From Rhodococcus coprophilus NBRC 100603 (lineage in GTDB: Bacteria > Actinomycetota > Actinomycetes > Mycobacteriales > Mycobacteriaceae), in assembly GCF_001895045.1 (NCBI RefSeq), contig NZ_BDAM01000003.1, positions 62,001-126,000 on the forward strand: a stretch of 64,000 nt of DNA, in the 5' to 3' direction. Every line of letters begins with the position of its first letter. Position 1 is the first letter of the stretch. Shown here piece after piece: positions 46,331 through 60,444 of the stretch. Below the pieces are notes generated by a model, which worked only from the letters and a program-made list of their open reading frames with translations, made no database searches and was not told the DNA's origin. A program made the position numbers and the translations under genes.

Positions 46331-46441
46331 ATGACCGGACCCGGAGTGCGACTCGTGGCTCGACGCCACGTCGACCTCAAGCGTGTCTGTGCGTCTGTCT
46401 GTCTGCCTTGCGCCGCCTGTTTCTGCGCCGACTGTCTGTAG
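46331..46441 (+). CDS. Cysteine-rich leader peptide of the sir-cys operon
   Basis: A 36-codon ORF: MTGPGVRLVARRHVDLKRVC followed by ASVCLPCAACFCADCL and a stop. Cys codons stand at 20, 24, 27, 30, 32 and 35, a density far above chance. The RLVARRHVDLKRVC part matches the small 'putative leader peptides' seen before cysteine genes in actinobacteria. Leaderless polycysteine ORFs of this kind act in mycobacteria as cysteine-responsive attenuators. When Cys-tRNA is short the ribosome would stall, shift the RNA fold and raise sir translation. It ends 112 bp before sir and overlaps a hairpin (46427-46446). Confidence 0.9.
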   Translation: MTGPGVRLVARRHVDLKRVCASVCLPCAACFCADCL

Positions 46442-53176: not shown

Positions 53177-54079
53177 ATGAGCACAGGAACACCGGGGGGC
53201 GGAATCTTAGTGGGCATCGACGGCTCCGACAGCGCCGTCGACGCAGCCAGATGGGCCGCAGTCGTCGCGCGTCGGCTCGGAGAACCGCTCCGGCTCGTCC
53301 ACGCCCACTCCGGCGGACCCGGCGACGCCGACGAACCCACTCGCGCCGTACTCGACAATGCCGAAGCCGCAATCCTGGAAGAAGCAGCGGCAGTCGACGC
53401 GGCCGCGCCTCGGGAACCCACGGCCGGGAACGAGCTCACGGCGGAGTTGGCTGTCGAGAAGAAGGCGGTGTCGGGCCGGCCCGCCAACGCCCTGTCCGAT
53501 CTGTCCGCGTCGGCACGGATGCTCGTGCTCGGGCACACCACCACCAGCGAACTTCAATCCATGTTCCGCAGGTCCGACGTCGTCTACGTCGCCAATCATG
53601 CGGTCTGCCCGGTCGTCTCGTGGCGCAGCGAGCAAGGGTTCCGGCCACCGGACGGCCGTCCGATCGTGGTGGGCGTCGACGGTACGCAGCTGAGCTCCGC
53701 GGCGATCGGGGAAGGCTATCGTCTCGCCGCGGCACTCGAGGCACCGCTAGTCGCCGTACACACCTGGGTGGAACACTCCACGATCACCTACGGCGAAGAT
53801 TCCCGCTTCACCGACTGGACGGACTTCGCCGCGTTCCGGAAAGCCAGGATGGTGGAGTCGATGGCCGACTGGGCGTCGGACTTTCCCGACGTGGAGGTCG
53901 AGCACCGGGTCGAACGCGGCAAACCCGACATCGTGCTGCTCGAACATTCGGCCCACGCACAACTGATCGTCGTCGGCAGCCACGGCCGCAGCGCCCAATC
54001 ATCCGCCATCCTCGGTTCCACCAGTCAGGGCCTGATCCACCACAGCTTCTGTCCGGTGGCGATCTGCCGCGCTAGGTGA
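53177..54079 (+). CDS. Tandem-domain universal stress protein
   Basis: A 300-residue protein with two Usp domains. The first (about 10-150) opens [35 protein letters not shown] and ends with the degenerate [33 protein letters not shown]. The second opens [40 protein letters not shown] and ends [34 protein letters not shown], an intact ATP-binding G-x2-G-x9-G(S/T) type motif. Such mycobacterial-type proteins accompany dormancy and hypoxia responses. GGGAG lies 8 nt upstream of ATG 53177. It overlaps the convergent cysA by 8 bp. Confidence 0.92.
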
Positions 54080-55079
54080 CGGGGACCGCGGCCGTCAGCT
54101 GCGGGGCGGTCGTGGCACGGGCGTAGACGGTCTCTCCCGGCGCCAGCCCGAGAGCGTGCGCGTCGCCGCGCGTGACCTGCGCGGAGAAGGACTCCCCGGT
54201 CGCCTCGTTCCGCAATTCGACGCGCACCTCGAAGCCGAGGCGCACGACGCGTTCGACCGTGGCGCGGGTGATGCCCAGGGTCTCGGCCGTTCCCTCGTTC
54301 TGAGCCAGTGCCAGCTCCGGTTGCCGTCCCAGCCGGATGTCGTGGGGTCGCACGAGTTGCCCGTTGAGCTTGGACACGGTGCCGAGGAAGGACATCACGA
54401 AGGTGTTGGCCGGACGGTCGTACAGCTCCTCCGGCGTCCCTACCTGCTCGATTCGACCCGCGTTCATCACCGCGATCCGGTCGGCGACGTCGAGCGCCTC
54501 CTCCTGGTCGTGCGTGACCAGCACCGTCGTGACGTGAACCTCGTCGTGCAGTCGCCGCAGCCAGGTGCGCAGGTCGGTGCGCACCTTCGCGTCGAGCGCG
54601 CCGAACGGCTCGTCGAGCAGCAGCACGCGCGGATCCACCGCGAGCGCCCGCGCCAGTGCCATGCGCTGACGCTGACCGCCCGACAGTTGCGCCGGGTACC
54701 GGGTCTGGAATCCGTCCAGCCCGACGATCTCGAGCAGTTCGTCGACTTTCTTCTGTATTTCCGGCTTGGGCCGCTTCCGGATCTTGAGCCCGAACGCGAC
54801 GTTCTCCCGCACCGTCATGTGCTTGAAGGCTGCGTAGTGCTGAAAGACGAATCCGATGTCGCGCTTCTGCGGCGTCACGGTCGTCACGTCCTCACCCGCG
54901 ATGTGGACGGTGCCCTCGTCCAGCGATTCGAGGCCGGCGATGGAGCGCAACAGGGTCGACTTGCCGGAGCCGGACGGTCCGAGCAGCGCGGTGAGCGATC
55001 CCGACGGGATTTCGAGGCTCACGTCGTCGAGTGCCGCGAAGCTGCCGTAGTTCTTGCGTGCCGAGGTGACGGTGATCAT
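54072..55079 (-). CDS. cysA: Sulfate/thiosulfate ABC transporter ATPase
   Basis: A 335-residue ATPase. Walker [13 protein letters not shown]-loop [22 protein letters not shown], signature [15 protein letters not shown], Walker [17 protein letters not shown] and H-loop [17 protein letters not shown] are all intact. The C-terminal part is the TOBE-like regulatory domain with [10 protein letters not shown]. The GALDAKVR form and gene order mark it as CysA. The start overlaps the cysW stop. Confidence 0.95.
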
Positions 55080-55885
55080 TCTTCGGTGCTCCTCTTGCGG
55101 TCGAGAAGGGTCATCAACAGCAGAACGATCACCGCGATGGCCATCAGCAGGGTCGCGGCGCTGTATGCGCCGAAAGTGTTGTGGTCGTCGATGTACCGGG
55201 CGTGGACGAGGAGGGTGAGCGTCTGCGACACCCCGGGAAAGCCCGACGAAACCATGATGACGGCGCCGAACTCGCCGAGCGCGCGGGCCACGGTCAGCAC
55301 CACGCCGTAGGTCAGTCCCCAGCGGATCGCGGGCAGGGTGATCCGCCAGAAGGTCTGCCAACTGTCGGCACCGAGGGTCGCGGCAGCCTGCTCCTGTTCC
55401 TCACCGATCTCGTACAGCACCGGTTCGACCTCGCGGACGACGAACGGCAGCGTCACGAAGATCGTCGCGATCACCATGCCGGGGAGTCCGAAGATCACCT
55501 TGAAGCCGAGGGATTCGACGGCACCGAACCAGCCGTTCGCGCCCCAGAGCATGATCAGCGCGACGCCCACCACGATGGGTGAGACCGCGAAGGGCAGGTC
55601 GACGACGGACTGCAGGAGTCGCCGGCCGGGAAACCGGCCACGGACCAGAGCCAGCGCGACCACGATGCCGAACACCACGTTGACGGGGACGACGATCGCG
55701 ACGATCAGCAGCGACAAGTTCAGTGCGGAGATGGCCGCCGGGGTGCTGATCGATTCGGCGAATGCGCCGATCCCGTTCTCGAACGTGCGGTACAGAATCA
55801 CGCCGATCGGCACGAGCAGCAGGACGAACAGGTATCCGAGCGCGACGGTGCGCAGCGAGATCTTGACGGGAAGCGACACGTTCAC
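55076..55885 (-). CDS. cysW: Sulfate ABC transporter permease CysW
   Basis: A 269-residue permease with six hydrophobic segments. The binding-protein-dependent transport motif appears as [33 protein letters not shown] (EAA loop), and the C-terminal half has [17 protein letters not shown], the CysW signature. GTG 55885 overlaps the cysT stop. Confidence 0.95.
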
Positions 55886-56766: not shown

Positions 56767-57795
56767 CTACTTCGTGGCGTTGTCGTAGGCGAGCGCGATG
56801 GTGCCGGACCCGTCGGCGAACAGTTCCTCGTCGACCGTGTCCCAGCCACCGAGATCGGCGACGGTCCAGAGCTTGGCCGGCTCCGGGAACTCGTCGGCGA
56901 ATTCTGCTGCCACGGCGGGATCGACGGGCCGGAAGCCGGCTTCGGCCCACAGGCGCTGAGCTTCCTGGGTGTACAGGAAGTCGTCGAACGCCTGGGCGAC
57001 CTCGGCGTTCGGCGAATTCTTCAGCACCGCAGCGGGATTCTCGATCTTGAAGGTGACCGGCGGAGTGACGTGCTCGACGGGGTCACCGTTGCGTTCGATG
57101 AAAAGCGCTTCGTTCTCGTAGCTGAGCAGAACGTCGCCGGTGCCCTGGAGGAACGTCTCGGTGGCTTCACGACCGGATTTCGGCTGCACCTTGACGTGAT
57201 CGTCGACCAGCGCTGTGATGTAGTCGATTCCGGCCTGCGGGTCGGCGCCCCCGTTGCTGATGGCCGCGTACGGGGCGAGCAGATTCCACTTCGCGGAGCC
57301 GGAACTGAACGGGTTGGGCGTGACCACTTCGACGTCGGGACGCAGCAGATCGTCCCAGTCACGGATGTTCTTCGGGTTGCCTTCACGCACCACCATCGTG
57401 ACGACCGACCCGAACGGCACTCCGCCGTAGGCGTTGTCGTTCCACGCCTCGTCGACGAGTCCGGCCTCGACGAGACGGGTGACGTCCGGTTCGACGGAGA
57501 AGTTCACGAAGTCGGCTGCGGCTCCGTCGCGCACCTTGCGCGACTGGTCTCCCGATGCGCCGTAAGACGGCTGGAACGCGACGTCCGTGCCCGCCTCGGT
57601 TTCCTGGAAGGCCGGGATGAGCAGGTCGAAACCGACCTTGGGCACTGCGTACGCGAAGAGGTTGACGGTGCCCGCCGAGCCGTCGTTGCCGCCGTCTGCG
57701 CCCACGACGTCGCTCGACCCTCCGCTGCACGCGGTCAGGGCGGTCACAGTCGCGGCGGCCACCGCGGCGACGAGCATTCTGGAACGGTTCTTCAT
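56767..57795 (-). CDS. subI: Sulfate-binding lipoprotein
   Basis: A 342-residue lipoprotein with signal MKNRSRMLVAAVAAATVTALTAC (lipobox LTAC). The body has the sulfate-binding motifs VNLFAYAVPKVGFDLLIPAFQETEAG, QPSYGASGDQSRKVRDGAAADFVNFSVEPDVTRL, VTPNPFSSGSAKWNLLAPYA and LLSYENEALF. It captures sulfate or thiosulfate outside the membrane for CysTWA. ATG 57795 has AGGAGG 8 nt upstream; the in-frame frame to 57900 overlaps the hairpin leader and has no ribosome binding site. Confidence 0.95.
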   Translation of the reverse strand: MKNRSRMLVAAVAAATVTALTACSGGSSDVVGADGGNDGSAGTVNLFAYAVPKVGFDLLIPAFQETEAGTDVAFQPSYGASGDQSRKVRDGAAADFVNFSVEPDVTRLVEAGLVDEAWNDNAYGGVPFGSVVTMVVREGNPKNIRDWDDLLRPDVEVVTPNPFSSGSAKWNLLAPYAAISNGGADPQAGIDYITALVDDHVKVQPKSGREATETFLQGTGDVLLSYENEALFIERNGDPVEHVTPPVTFKIENPAAVLKNSPNAEVAQAFDDFLYTQEAQRLWAEAGFRPVDPAVAAEFADEFPEPAKLWTVADLGGWDTVDEELFADGSGTIALAYDNATK

Positions 57796-57855
57796 GACAC
57801 GAGCCTCCTGAGGGGCTGTTCGGTGAGGTGTGAAGAACGGATGACGGCAACGCGA

Positions 57856-57940
57856 CACCCCCGCGCCACGAACCGTGGCGTGCCGGGGTGACGGAATCAT
57901 CCGTGAGGGGTTACGAGGACGGGGAGCACGAACGGCTCCC
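57856..57940 (-). promoter_or_regulatory. Hairpins in the long 5' leader of subI
   Basis: Two stems lie between the Cys leader ORF and subI: GGGAGC/GCTCCC (57935-57940 with 57922-57927), and a larger one, 57856-57869 with 57875-57890, of 8 bp plus 6 bp separated by a 2-nt bulge. The larger is strong enough to stop transcription but has no T-tract. Confidence 0.45.
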
Positions 57941-57972
57941 GGTCGAATGGCCGGACCGAGTCGAAGGCAGGG

Positions 57973-58065
57973 TCAGCGACAACAGTGAATATCGGCAACC
58001 GAAGGCATACCTACAGCGATCAACGCCAGTTCATGGCGGATTCGAGGTAGCGTGGTCGCGGTCAC
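57973..58065 (-). CDS. Putative leaderless leader peptide ending in Cys-Cys, upstream of subI
   Basis: A 30-codon ORF starting at GTG 58065: MTATTLPRIRHELALIAVGM followed by PSVADIHCCR and TGA. TAGAGT, a good -10 of the TANNNT type, ends exactly 7 nt before the GTG, so the mRNA would begin at the start codon. The two Cys codons are adjacent and next to the end, which is where a ribosome short of Cys-tRNA would stop. It lies 178 bp before the sulfate importer gene, mirroring the Cys-rich leader ahead of sir. I found it by reading the strand; conservation is untested. Confidence 0.55.
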   Translation of the reverse strand: MTATTLPRIRHELALIAVGMPSVADIHCCR

Positions 58066-58072
58066 CCGGCAG

Positions 58073-58078
58073 ACTCTA
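58073..58078 (-). promoter_or_regulatory. -10 hexamer for the subI leader
   Basis: TAGAGT on the minus strand, 7 nt before the GTG of the leader ORF. The -35 region is weak. Confidence 0.5.
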
Positions 58079-58131
58079 GCAGAGCGCGCGGAGCACCCGA
58101 AAACCGACGTTTCGGGCGGAGAACCGGAGTG

Positions 58132-58209
58132 TCAGCGGGTCAGCAGCCACGCGACGACGACGAGCAGCAGCAGGGCGACCAGCGCCAGGGTCACGCGCGA
58201 GCGCGGCAT
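58132..58209 (-). CDS. 25-residue single-span membrane microprotein
   Basis: The ORF reads MPRSRVTLALVALLLLVVVA then WLLTR: a short basic start, an unbroken hydrophobic helix of about 17 residues, and Arg at the end. It has GGAGG 9 nt upstream and begins 1 nt after the stop of another small membrane protein, so translation is probably coupled. It is too short for standard gene calling. Function unknown; the mycobacterial locus also has short membrane-protein genes here. Confidence 0.6.
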   Translation of the reverse strand: MPRSRVTLALVALLLLVVVAWLLTR

Positions 58210-58210
58210 G

Positions 58211-58417
58211 TCAGCAATCCTCCGGGTCCGGGGCAGGCGATACGGGTTCGCGTCGTCCGACCACCGCGAACGCGCCGGCGATCACACGGTCCAGCAGCCA
58301 GGCGACACCTCCGCACAACGGCACCAGTACGACCAGCACCAGCGCCGATTGCGGCACAAAGGACAGACCCGTGAGCCAGAGCTCGAATCCGTCCCACCAC
58401 GATGCCACCCGATCCAC
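58211..58417 (-). CDS. Small membrane protein of unknown function
   Basis: A 68-residue protein starting at GTG 58417 (VDRVASWWDGFELWLTGLSF). It has two hydrophobic stretches, VPQSALVLVVLVPLCGGVAWLL and the amphipathic AGAFAVVG, then a short acidic tail PVSPAPDPEDC. AAGG and GAGGAGA lie just upstream. The neighbouring 25-residue membrane ORF follows 1 nt after its stop. It lies between trehalase and the sulfate importer, where mycobacteria also carry a small unknown membrane-protein gene. Confidence 0.65.
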   Translation of the reverse strand: MDRVASWWDGFELWLTGLSFVPQSALVLVVLVPLCGGVAWLLDRVIAGAFAVVGRREPVSPAPDPEDC

Positions 58418-58506
58418 TCTCCTCACCTTAGTGGCTGCGGCGAACTCGCCCGTACGCAGCCCGGCAATGCCGCCCGGACGGCTCGTTCCGGCGGGATCAT
58501 AGAAAG

Positions 58507-60444
58507 ATGTCTTGGTCACGACCTCTGCGGGTCGCAGCACTGCACGACAGTCCCCACCCGCCCATCGACGATTACGCGTTTCTTTCCGACTGTGAGACGA
58601 CGTGCCTGGTGGCCCGCGACGGCACGGTGGAATGGATGTGCCTGCCGCGACCGGATTCGCCGAGTGTGTTCGGCGCTGTGCTCGACCGCAGCGCCGGCCG
58701 CTTCCGGCTCGCCCCACACAACCGCACCGTGCCGGCGGCGCGCCGCTACCTGCCCGGTGGGCTCATCCTCGAAACGACGTGGCAGACCGACACCGGCTGG
58801 ATGGTCGTGCGCGACGCGCTGGTGATGGGACGCTGGTACGACGTCGACGAACGCTCACGCACGCATCGGCGCACCCCGTCGGACTGGCAGGCCGAACACG
58901 TTCTGTTGCGCACCGTGCGCTGTGTGAACGGCACGGTCGAACTGGACATGTCGTGCGAACCGGCCTTCGATTATCACCGGGGCGTCGCCGAGTGGCGTTA
59001 CACCGGAAAGGTGTACGAGGAAGCCACGGCCATGGAGATCGCGGCGCCCGACGAGAACCCACAGTTGCGGCTGACCACCGACCTCCGACTCGGCATCGAG
59101 GGCCGTGAGGCACGCGCCCGCACCCGGCTGGAGAAGGGCGACTCGGTCTTCGTCGCCCTGTCCTGGTCGGAACTCACGCCACCGCGCACGTTCACCGAGG
59201 CGGTCGCGAAGATGACCAATACACAGGACTTCTGGCGGGAATGGATCACCACCGGCCGCTTCCCGGACCATCCGTGGCGCACCTATCTGCAGAGCAGTGC
59301 GGCGATCCTGAAGGGACTGACCTACGCCCCAACCGGAGCCCTGCTCGCCGCGCCGACCACTTCCTTACCGGAAACACCTGGTGGAGAGCGCAACTGGGAT
59401 TACCGCTATGCCTGGGTTCGCGACTCGACCTTCGCCCTGTGGGGCTTGCACACGCTCGGCCTCGACCGTGAAGCCGACGACTTCTTCTCGTTCATCCTCG
59501 ACGTCTCCCAGAACGCGGACGGCAGTGACCGCACACTCCAGGTCATGTACGGGGTGGGCGGGGAAAGTTCGCTTCCCGAGTCGACACTCGACCACCTGAG
59601 CGGATACGACGGCGCCAAGCCGTGCCGGATCGGCAACGACGCGTATCACCAACGCCAGCACGATATCTGGGGGACGCTTCTCGACTCGGTGTACCTGCAC
59701 GTGCGCTCGCGGCGGCAGATCCCCGAATCGCTGTGGCCGATCCTGCGCAAGCAGGTCGACGAGGCGGTCACCCATTGGCGCGAACCGGACATGGGCATCT
59801 GGGAAGTGCGGGGCGAACCTCAGCACTTCACGTCGTCGAAGGTCATGTGCTGGGTGGCCCTGGACCGTGGCGCGAAGCTGGCCGACCTTCACGGCCGAGA
59901 CAGCCATGCGCGGCGGTGGGCGGCGATCGCCGACGAGATCAAAGCCGATGTCCTCGAGCACGGAGTCGACGAAAGAGGCGTGTTCACACAGCGTTACGGC
60001 CATCCGTCTCTCGATGCCTCGACGCTCCTGATCCCGTTGCTGCGCTTCCTTCCCGCCGACGACCCGAGGGTCCGCGCGACCGTGCTCGCCGTCGCCGACG
60101 AACTGACCGACGACGGACTCGTGTTGCGCTACCGCGTCGAGACCACCGACGACGGACTCAACGGGAAGGAGGGAACCTTCACGATCTGTTCCTTCTGGCT
60201 GGTGTCGGCATTGGTGGAGATCGGCGAGGTGGAGCGCGCCGCAATGCTCTGCCATCGCCTGCTCGAGTACGCCAGCCCGCTGAAACTCTATGCGGAGGAG
60301 ATCGATCCGGCGTCGGGCCGGCACCTCGGCAATTTCCCACAGGCCTTCACACATCTCGCGCAGATCAACGCCGTGGTGCATGTCGTCCGCGCCGAACACA
60401 AAGTGCAGACCGGGGAGTTCCGGCCCGGGCATCCGGCTTCCTGA
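58507..60444 (+). CDS. GH15-family trehalase
   Basis: A 645-residue glucoamylase-like enzyme. The N-terminal beta-sandwich opens IDDYAFLSDCETTCLVARDGTVEWMCLPRPDSPSVFGAVLDRSAGRF. The (alpha/alpha)6 barrel has GALLAAPTTSLPETPGGERNWDYRYAWVRDSTFALWGL (catalytic-site WDYR) and GKEGTFTICSFWLVSALVEIG (catalytic Glu region), ending ASGRHLGNFPQAFTHLAQINA. The mycobacterial orthologue in this position is a phosphate-dependent alpha,alpha-trehalase. It would turn trehalose into glucose. ATG 58507 has AGAAAG upstream. Confidence 0.9.
   Translation: MSWSRPLRVAALHDSPHPPIDDYAFLSDCETTCLVARDGTVEWMCLPRPDSPSVFGAVLDRSAGRFRLAPHNRTVPAARRYLPGGLILETTWQTDTGWMVVRDALVMGRWYDVDERSRTHRRTPSDWQAEHVLLRTVRCVNGTVELDMSCEPAFDYHRGVAEWRYTGKVYEEATAMEIAAPDENPQLRLTTDLRLGIEGREARARTRLEKGDSVFVALSWSELTPPRTFTEAVAKMTNTQDFWREWITTGRFPDHPWRTYLQSSAAILKGLTYAPTGALLAAPTTSLPETPGGERNWDYRYAWVRDSTFALWGLHTLGLDREADDFFSFILDVSQNADGSDRTLQVMYGVGGESSLPESTLDHLSGYDGAKPCRIGNDAYHQRQHDIWGTLLDSVYLHVRSRRQIPESLWPILRKQVDEAVTHWREPDMGIWEVRGEPQHFTSSKVMCWVALDRGAKLADLHGRDSHARRWAAIADEIKADVLEHGVDERGVFTQRYGHPSLDASTLLIPLLRFLPADDPRVRATVLAVADELTDDGLVLRYRVETTDDGLNGKEGTFTICSFWLVSALVEIGEVERAAMLCHRLLEYASPLKLYAEEIDPASGRHLGNFPQAFTHLAQINAVVHVVRAEHKVQTGEFRPGHPAS

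Follow-up and report, generated by a model that had tools for sequence, protein, structure and literature searches.

A putative leaderless cysteine leader of the Ms4533A family ahead of the Rhodococcus sulfate importer genes, with a conserved in-frame hairpin and an invariant UGU codon

Introduction

In trp-type attenuators, a leader ORF carries codons for the sensed amino acid near its end and is accompanied by an early hairpin, while TnaC and SecM exemplify the arrest peptides. For leaderless leaders that carry cysteine codons, ribosome stalling at a Cys codon is an established idea, and Canestrari et al. in 2020 reportedly described cysteine-responsive control through the polycysteine leaderless sORFs of mycobacteria. 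Published work describes Cys leader peptides ahead of mycobacterial cys operons that lack obvious terminators, with Rho suggested instead (Seliverstov 2005, PMC1262725), leaderless Cys-rich uORFs ahead of cysA2, Rv0485 and nirA (Shell 2015, PMC4633059), and six Cys-rich sORFs regarded as regulatory (Smith 2022, PMC9094748); a 2026 paper (PMC13236596) cites Canestrari 2020 on the control of cysteine genes by translation attenuation in M. smegmatis.

Here we describe a leader ORF ahead of the sulfate importer genes in a window of Rhodococcus coprophilus NBRC 100603, the window being the whole stretch of 64,000 nucleotides that was analysed. Compared with the mycobacterial polycysteine sORFs, as these are known from citing papers, this leader and its relatives in the Ms4533A family are alike in being short, predicted to be leaderless and cysteine-responsive, terminated by Cys, and placed before sulfur genes, but they need no run of Cys codons, 24 of 91 relatives having a single one. 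They resemble trp-type attenuators in their end-placed sensor codons and early hairpin, and differ in a spacer without a detected intrinsic terminator. With TnaC-type arrest coupled to Rho they share a conserved nascent chain, often a single sensor residue near the stop codon, a C-rich spacer and the lack of an intrinsic terminator, both arrest and Rho being putative here.

The leader ORF and the subI-cysTWA genes

The features of the locus are as follows.

58073..58078, minus strand: -10 box TAGAGT, ending 7 nt before the GTG; predicted leaderless promoter
57973..58065, minus strand: leader ORF, GTG start, 30 aa, NF042937 (Ms4533A family), reading VTATTLPRIRHELALIAVGMPSVADIHCCR and stop
58024..58038, minus strand: ORF-internal hairpin H1, CGCCA-TGAAC-TGGCG, in codons R-H-E-L-A; indicated by the recoding test, arms changing together
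57980..57994, minus strand: weaker candidate hairpin H2, CGATA-TTCAC-TGTTG, its 3' arm beginning with the sensor UGU; indicated by the recoding test with TGT kept
57982..57984, minus strand: putative sensor cysteine codon TGT, the first of two Cys; TGT in 105/105 distinct leaders
57796..57972, minus strand: untranslated spacer of 177 nt from leader stop to subI, without a detected intrinsic terminator
57804..57809, minus strand: Shine-Dalgarno AGGAGG of subI
56767..57795, minus strand: subI, sulfate ABC transporter substrate-binding protein, ATG at 57795; TIGR00971 over cut-off, PF13531
55882..56757, minus strand: cysT permease; TIGR02139 over cut-off
55076..55885, minus strand: cysW permease; TIGR02140 over cut-off
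54072..55361, minus strand: cysA ATPase, ORF as listed; TIGR00968 over cut-off

The preliminary description, made from the DNA letters and without a strand, had reported a 30-codon GTG ORF preceded by TAGAGT at exactly 7 nt, and both are present: the frame runs on the minus strand from 58065 to 57973, stop included, and TAGAGT (58078-58073) is followed by CTGCCGG (7 nt) and then by the GTG. Nine TANNNT-N7-RTG sites occur on the two strands of the window, and this one alone opens an ORF of at most 45 codons, which argues that the arrangement is more than chance. Transcription would thus, by the -10 spacing, start at the GTG itself. The encoded SubI is 81-86% identical to five named Rhodococcus records and 71% identical to a Rhodococcus MAG and a Nocardia. 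The true start of cysA is probably internal to the listed ORF, because the TIGR00968 match begins at residue 96. A search of the leader region against plasmids gave no match.

A named leader family conserved ahead of subI

The leader peptide matches NCBIfam NF042937, "Ms4533A family Cys-rich leader peptide", with 54.4 bits (E 1e-14; cut-off 31). No other model matches it at E up to 1, and this includes NF042936, the Ms4527A type with the RRHVDL core. By this match the leader is a well-supported member of an already named family, which it resembles in peptide, place upstream of subI and terminal Cys, with no substantive difference. The ORF had initially been presented as unlisted; since the match exceeds the cut-off, its class is one that NCBI already holds. 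The accompanying proposal that it stands in a class apart from the leader of the sir gene in the same window was borne out, the best match of the sir leader being NF042936, below cut-off.

We searched NF042937 against 151 genomes of the same taxonomic family and 14 control genomes. Matches were found in 84 of the 151 (72 over cut-off) and in none of the controls, 92 matches in all, and in 91 of these 92 a subI gene lies directly downstream. One match (G028), with neither a leaderless start nor subI, was dropped, leaving 91. The distance from TANNNT to the start codon is 7 nt in 85 of the 91, 6 nt in three and 8 nt in three, and CTCTGCTA in the promoter region is invariant across 17 genomes of the Rhodococcus group. 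Leaders with one Cys number 24, those with two 61, with three 4 and with four 2. The window's leader, with its terminal run of two, had been regarded as a shorter version with just two Cys codons; with one to four being the norm among the relatives, that description is rejected. Compared across relatives, as the preliminary description had proposed, frame, spacing and terminal Cys are all kept, and its central idea, a leaderless cysteine leader ahead of subI-cysTWA, is backed by the comparison.

Against this reading we count the 67 of 151 family genomes without an NF042937 match; at least two of them (G018 and G023) have divergent leaders that score below the cut-off. When 12 subI loci were re-read, four (L025, L026, L027 and L028) were without such an ORF. 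A functionless chance ORF could be imagined from the short frame and GTG start, but the family match and the conservation of frame, spacing, peptide and codon choice make this negligibly probable. Strong peptide conservation might also be expected of a small protein acting in trans with no cis leader. Here, position is informative: besides the 91 of 92 own-family matches directly upstream of subI, eight genomes have two matches, and in seven of these (G026, G079, G097, G113, G128, G164 and G175) the leader-subI units form a tandem pair within 2 kb, with a leader before each copy, the eighth (G067) having them on two contigs. Cis action explains the tandem genomes better, and a protein acting in trans is highly improbable.

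The ORF is thus very probably a leaderless, cysteine-responsive leader. In the fuller form of this reading, to which we assign a probability of roughly 0.85, the ORF would be a leader of the Ms4533A family that is translated, senses cysteine and controls subI-cysTWA. A ribosome would translate the 30 codons and, when Cys-tRNA is short, stall at the UGU near the end of the ORF; from the known kind of leader and the role of the operon, such a stall would raise subI expression. The Rhodococcus sulfate importer is thereby placed, with strong comparative support, under a putative cysteine-responsive leader.

The leader ahead of a second importer

Among 345 genomes of the class, NF042937 matches occur in 33, namely 19 of the own family, 13 of f33/g69 and one of f32. 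The f33/g69 genomes with the leader measure 6.8-11 Mb. The f33 branch is found by the same model, but at its 13 loci (L136-L146, L148 and L149) the leader is followed not by subI but by a lipoprotein with a similar N-terminus. The one such lipoprotein tested is a family-5 solute-binding protein (SBP_bac_5, PF00496, 6.4e-77), whose best NCBIfam relative, the glutathione-binding GsiB, lies far below cut-off (92 vs 594). In eight of the 13 loci, as counted by eye, the ATG is preceded at 7 nt by CATATT. An Ms4533A-type leader ahead of this peptide-type importer suggests that the importer takes up a sulfur-containing peptide.

A search of the same 345 genomes with our own alignment (A1) returned 43 genomes at E up to 0.01, and G215, G193, G385, G430 and G406 were read from among the rows weaker than 1e-7. 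Two f27 genomes (G215 and G193) carry a more distant leader, RLSLIGMHTHAVSDVLC with TGT, that looks real. The matches in G385 and G430 did not, on reading, look like real leaders.

Conserved peptide and invariant UGU codon

The sensor Cys codon is TGT in all 91 family leaders and, with 20 leaders from the class search added and four g50 matches (G381, G423, G438 and G462) left out, in all 105 distinct leaders, while of the Cys codons in the accompanying subI genes only 9 of 88 are TGT. Here and in the hairpin counts below, the leaders are related by descent, so that the counts do not represent independent events. The peptide is conserved as well. Across 82 distinct leader cores, the LIAVG and VADI columns have pN/pS of 0.15 (pS 0.53-0.60), compared with 0.65 in the three columns between them. 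All 91 leaders share V14, D16 and C19, the first of these through four different codons, and an alignment of 35 leaders from f1 and f33, two actinomycete families, shows no change in V, D or C.

These data bear on a refinement compatible with the leader reading, that of an arrest peptide, in which the nascent chain LALIAVGxxxVADIxC would promote the stall within the exit tunnel, as in TnaC or SecM, and sense cysteine supply. If the conserved chain itself promoted stalling, one Cys codon would be enough, as in the 24 of 91 leaders with a single Cys, and the conservation of LIAVG and VADI as amino acids with free third positions, together with the V, D and C invariant in both families, points the same way. 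Part of the peptide conservation, however, may be RNA conservation, because the hairpins described below overlap some of the same codons (H1 at R-H-x-L-A, H2 at D-I-x-C-R). Moreover, the Cys-rich control leader Ms4527A also has a conserved peptide (ARRHVDLKRV), so that leaders with few Cys are not alone in showing such conservation. We regard the arrest peptide as a tentative refinement.

Hairpins inside the reading frame

In H1, the codons R-H-x-L-A give CGCCA-N5-TGGCG. Counted without an alignment, 98 of the 105 distinct leaders have a perfect stem of at least 5 there. Synonymous recoding gives 19.7 +- 4.1 (maximum 36 in 200) when codons follow the usage of subI and 21.4 +- 4.1 (maximum 32) when they follow that of the leaders. 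The two arms change together: among 91 leaders, CGC faces GCG in 83, GGC faces GCC in four, AGC faces GCG in two, and neither combination occurs in two. In the family outside g50 (n=86, not deduplicated), the arms are CGCCA/TGGCG in 67, GCGCCA/TGGCGC in 11, ACGCCA/TGGCGT in four and another pair in one, with none in three. The 11 g50 leaders have GAGGGCCA/TGGCCCTC in four, GGCCA/TGGCC in two, three further arms once each, one unrelated pair, and none in one. In f33/g69 (n=13) they are CGCCA/TGGCG in ten, another pair in one and none in two, the loop being one base longer and the left arm running through A-A-I codons rather than R-H. As judged from these arms, the H1 RNA is kept in f33/g69 where the encoded amino acids differ. 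G341 has no H1 arms.

On a MAFFT alignment of 86 rows (A2), in which the longer f33 loop is not gapped and the f33 arms stand one column off, 86.0% of H1 cells are paired vs 83.8 in shuffles, 7 cells are changed on both sides vs 2.0, and slid controls are 22.8-49.2% paired. The covariation score of H1 on A2 is 0.059, and the +2 and +3 slides score higher (0.072 and 0.107); covariation taken alone is therefore weak for H1, and the recoding test is its main support. In a helix scan against recoding, H1 ranks first in both score and z (12.9); z alone is no evidence there, since many weak helices also reach at least 10. A third helix, A8-V9-G10 with A15-D16-I17 (UGUCGGC/GCCGACA), was considered and rejected: its score is high, but its z is just 3.8-5.9, and unrelated helices have higher z.

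Counted from the start of the presumed transcript, H1 begins at nt 27 or 28 in 80 of 83 stem-bearing family leaders outside g50, which would be a suitable place for a polymerase pause or for ribosome spacing. Most likely H1 would either pause RNA polymerase or time the ribosome.

The candidate H2, scored with a 5-nt loop, G-U pairs allowed and UGU at the start of the 3' arm, is present in 92 of 105 distinct leaders; recoding with TGT kept gives 55.0 +- 5.1 (maximum 68) or 59.8 +- 5.2 (maximum 75). In the window it is weak and depends on two G-U pairs, and covariation says little on H2 because its pairs hardly vary.

Judged across the leaders compared, the UGU rule and the embedded hairpin are family-wide and not special to the window's leader, which is otherwise an ordinary family member; these are its parts of most note. 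The literature searched, to which the main experimental paper on such leaders did not belong, contained neither the name Ms4533A nor a description of the invariant UGU, H1, H2 or a leader before a peptide-type importer.

From the leader to subI

In the spacer between leader and subI, the preliminary description had placed two hairpins. As inverted repeats they can be read by eye (GGGAGC..GCTCCC and CACCCC..GGGGTG); as working parts they are unsupported, because they are not conserved, have no U-tract, and show no excess folding. The region after the ORF aligns poorly across the 17 Rhodococcus-group genomes, and against shuffles the transcript folds with a z of -0.72, 42 of 200 shuffles folding at least as well. 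No intrinsic terminator, in the sense of a hairpin with a U-tract, lies between leader and subI in the window, and terminator-like sites in 8 of 87 relatives' spacers are in no clear excess over 6.4 +- 2.9 in mononucleotide shuffles. A search of Rfam, T-box and riboswitch elements included, found nothing up to E 1 at positions 57700-58600 of the window; in six related loci it gave two matches (E 0.25 and 0.62), far below gathering scores.

Spacers are poorly conserved and, with subI starts chosen by script, 70-241 nt long in relatives. C exceeds G in 82 of 87 of them and, for comparison, in 43 of 89 stretches taken from upstream of the leader; this bias is consistent with Rho, without proving it. 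For the step from stall to subI, two routes that need no intrinsic terminator come into question, either termination by Rho within the C-rich spacer or regulation of subI at translation.

Two pairing models for this step were tried and rejected. Sequestration of the Shine-Dalgarno sequence by the leader tail was modelled as a general mechanism at 87 of the 91 loci with script-chosen subI starts, two loci being without a candidate start and two more (G015 and G017) excluded for a wrong start or one that lacked a Shine-Dalgarno; the mean unpaired probability was 0.34 free, 0.33 stalled and 0.35 with the ribosome at the stop. Pairing of the UGU with the spacer showed no excess over shuffles (13.9 vs 13.7, 86 distinct spacers). 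By eye, AACAG or GACAG, which could pair with CUGUU, stands just before the Shine-Dalgarno in 12 of the 17 Rhodococcus-group genomes; beyond this group, ACAG shows no enrichment (22 vs 23.1, a count over the whole set). As a separate observation, the trinucleotide ACA is enriched in the leader-subI spacers of 86 relatives, at 136 vs 103.9 +- 9.2 in dinucleotide shuffles.

These results weigh on a pure RNA-switch attenuator, in which H1, H2 and a spacer element would be alternative structures chosen by the stalled ribosome, the peptide being incidental. H1 and H2 both exceed synonymous recoding, and H1 persists in 10 of 13 f33 leaders with its left arm encoding other residues, as such a switch would have it. 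Yet the spacer offers no conserved partner and no excess of intrinsic terminators, modelled Shine-Dalgarno accessibility is unchanged, and the peptide is conserved at the amino-acid level, so that we consider this attenuator unlikely.

Within the preferred reading of a cysteine-sensing leader, we put forward, as a speculative proposal and one we hold to be possible rather than probable, that the Ms4533A leader is a portable composite sensor, made of a conserved nascent chain and two in-frame hairpins with the UGU in one 3' arm. With such a combination, one cysteine codon would suffice for gauging the supply of cysteine. The invariance of UGU would then reflect RNA pairing and not codon usage, its third U pairing with the A of the Asp codon, and the same cassette would serve unrelated importers, that for sulfate in Rhodococcus and relatives and the peptide-type importer in the second family. 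Ms4533A leaders, with an in-frame conserved hairpin, an invariant UGU and a conserved peptide, are in any case more than strings of Cys codons, and cysteine sensing through one Cys codon becomes a directly testable question.

Other cysteine leaders in the window and genome

The sir leader of the window (46331-46441, plus strand) reads MTGPGVRLVARRHVDLKRVCASVCLPCAACFCADCL and stop, with six Cys and CACAAT 7 nt before its ATG, and the gene after it is ferredoxin-nitrite/sulfite-reductase-like. Its best match, to NF042936, scores 38.8 against a cut-off of 45. That family is matched in 68 of 81 genomes. Leaders of this Ms4527A type resemble those of the Ms4533A family in the -10 box 7 nt before the ATG, as at the sir leader, in being Cys-rich, in one fixed UGU position, and in a possible ORF-internal hairpin that uses CGCCAY. 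They differ in the core, ARRHVDLKRV, and in having more Cys codons, of mixed UGU and UGC (72 TGT and 42 TGC in the 30 best matches), and their possible hairpin is built instead on V-A-R-R-H (GTGGC/GCCAY). Of the same 30 best matches, 28 have Cys at the last core position, always encoded by TGT, and the V at -4 is always encoded by GTG (28 of 28); GTGGC followed by GCCAY, the possible hairpin, occurs in 19 of 30 by a plain count. A single fixed UGU is thus seen again in a second family of leaders, perhaps together with a hairpin inside the ORF.

Further candidates were seen elsewhere in the same genome. A Cys leader ending RRRAVDLCRLGACCCTCC and stop (L220, G000:C8:220587-220643) precedes an ORF of ~180 codons and lies also upstream of a rhodanese of the 3-mercaptopyruvate sulfurtransferase type (below cut-off). 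Another frame (L221, G000:C10:10282-10332) ends LVRRLAVDLCRMSAHMCCR and stop, its last codons TGT TGT CGC TGA being like those of the subI leader; it scores below cut-off for NF042934 and precedes an NAD(P)-binding flavoprotein oxidoreductase for which no NCBIfam model is over cut-off. Finally, two RRHVDLCR-type candidates (L218, G000:C9:263546-263596, plus strand, and L219, 264933-264980, minus strand) lie ~1.4 kb apart on opposite strands, face to face.
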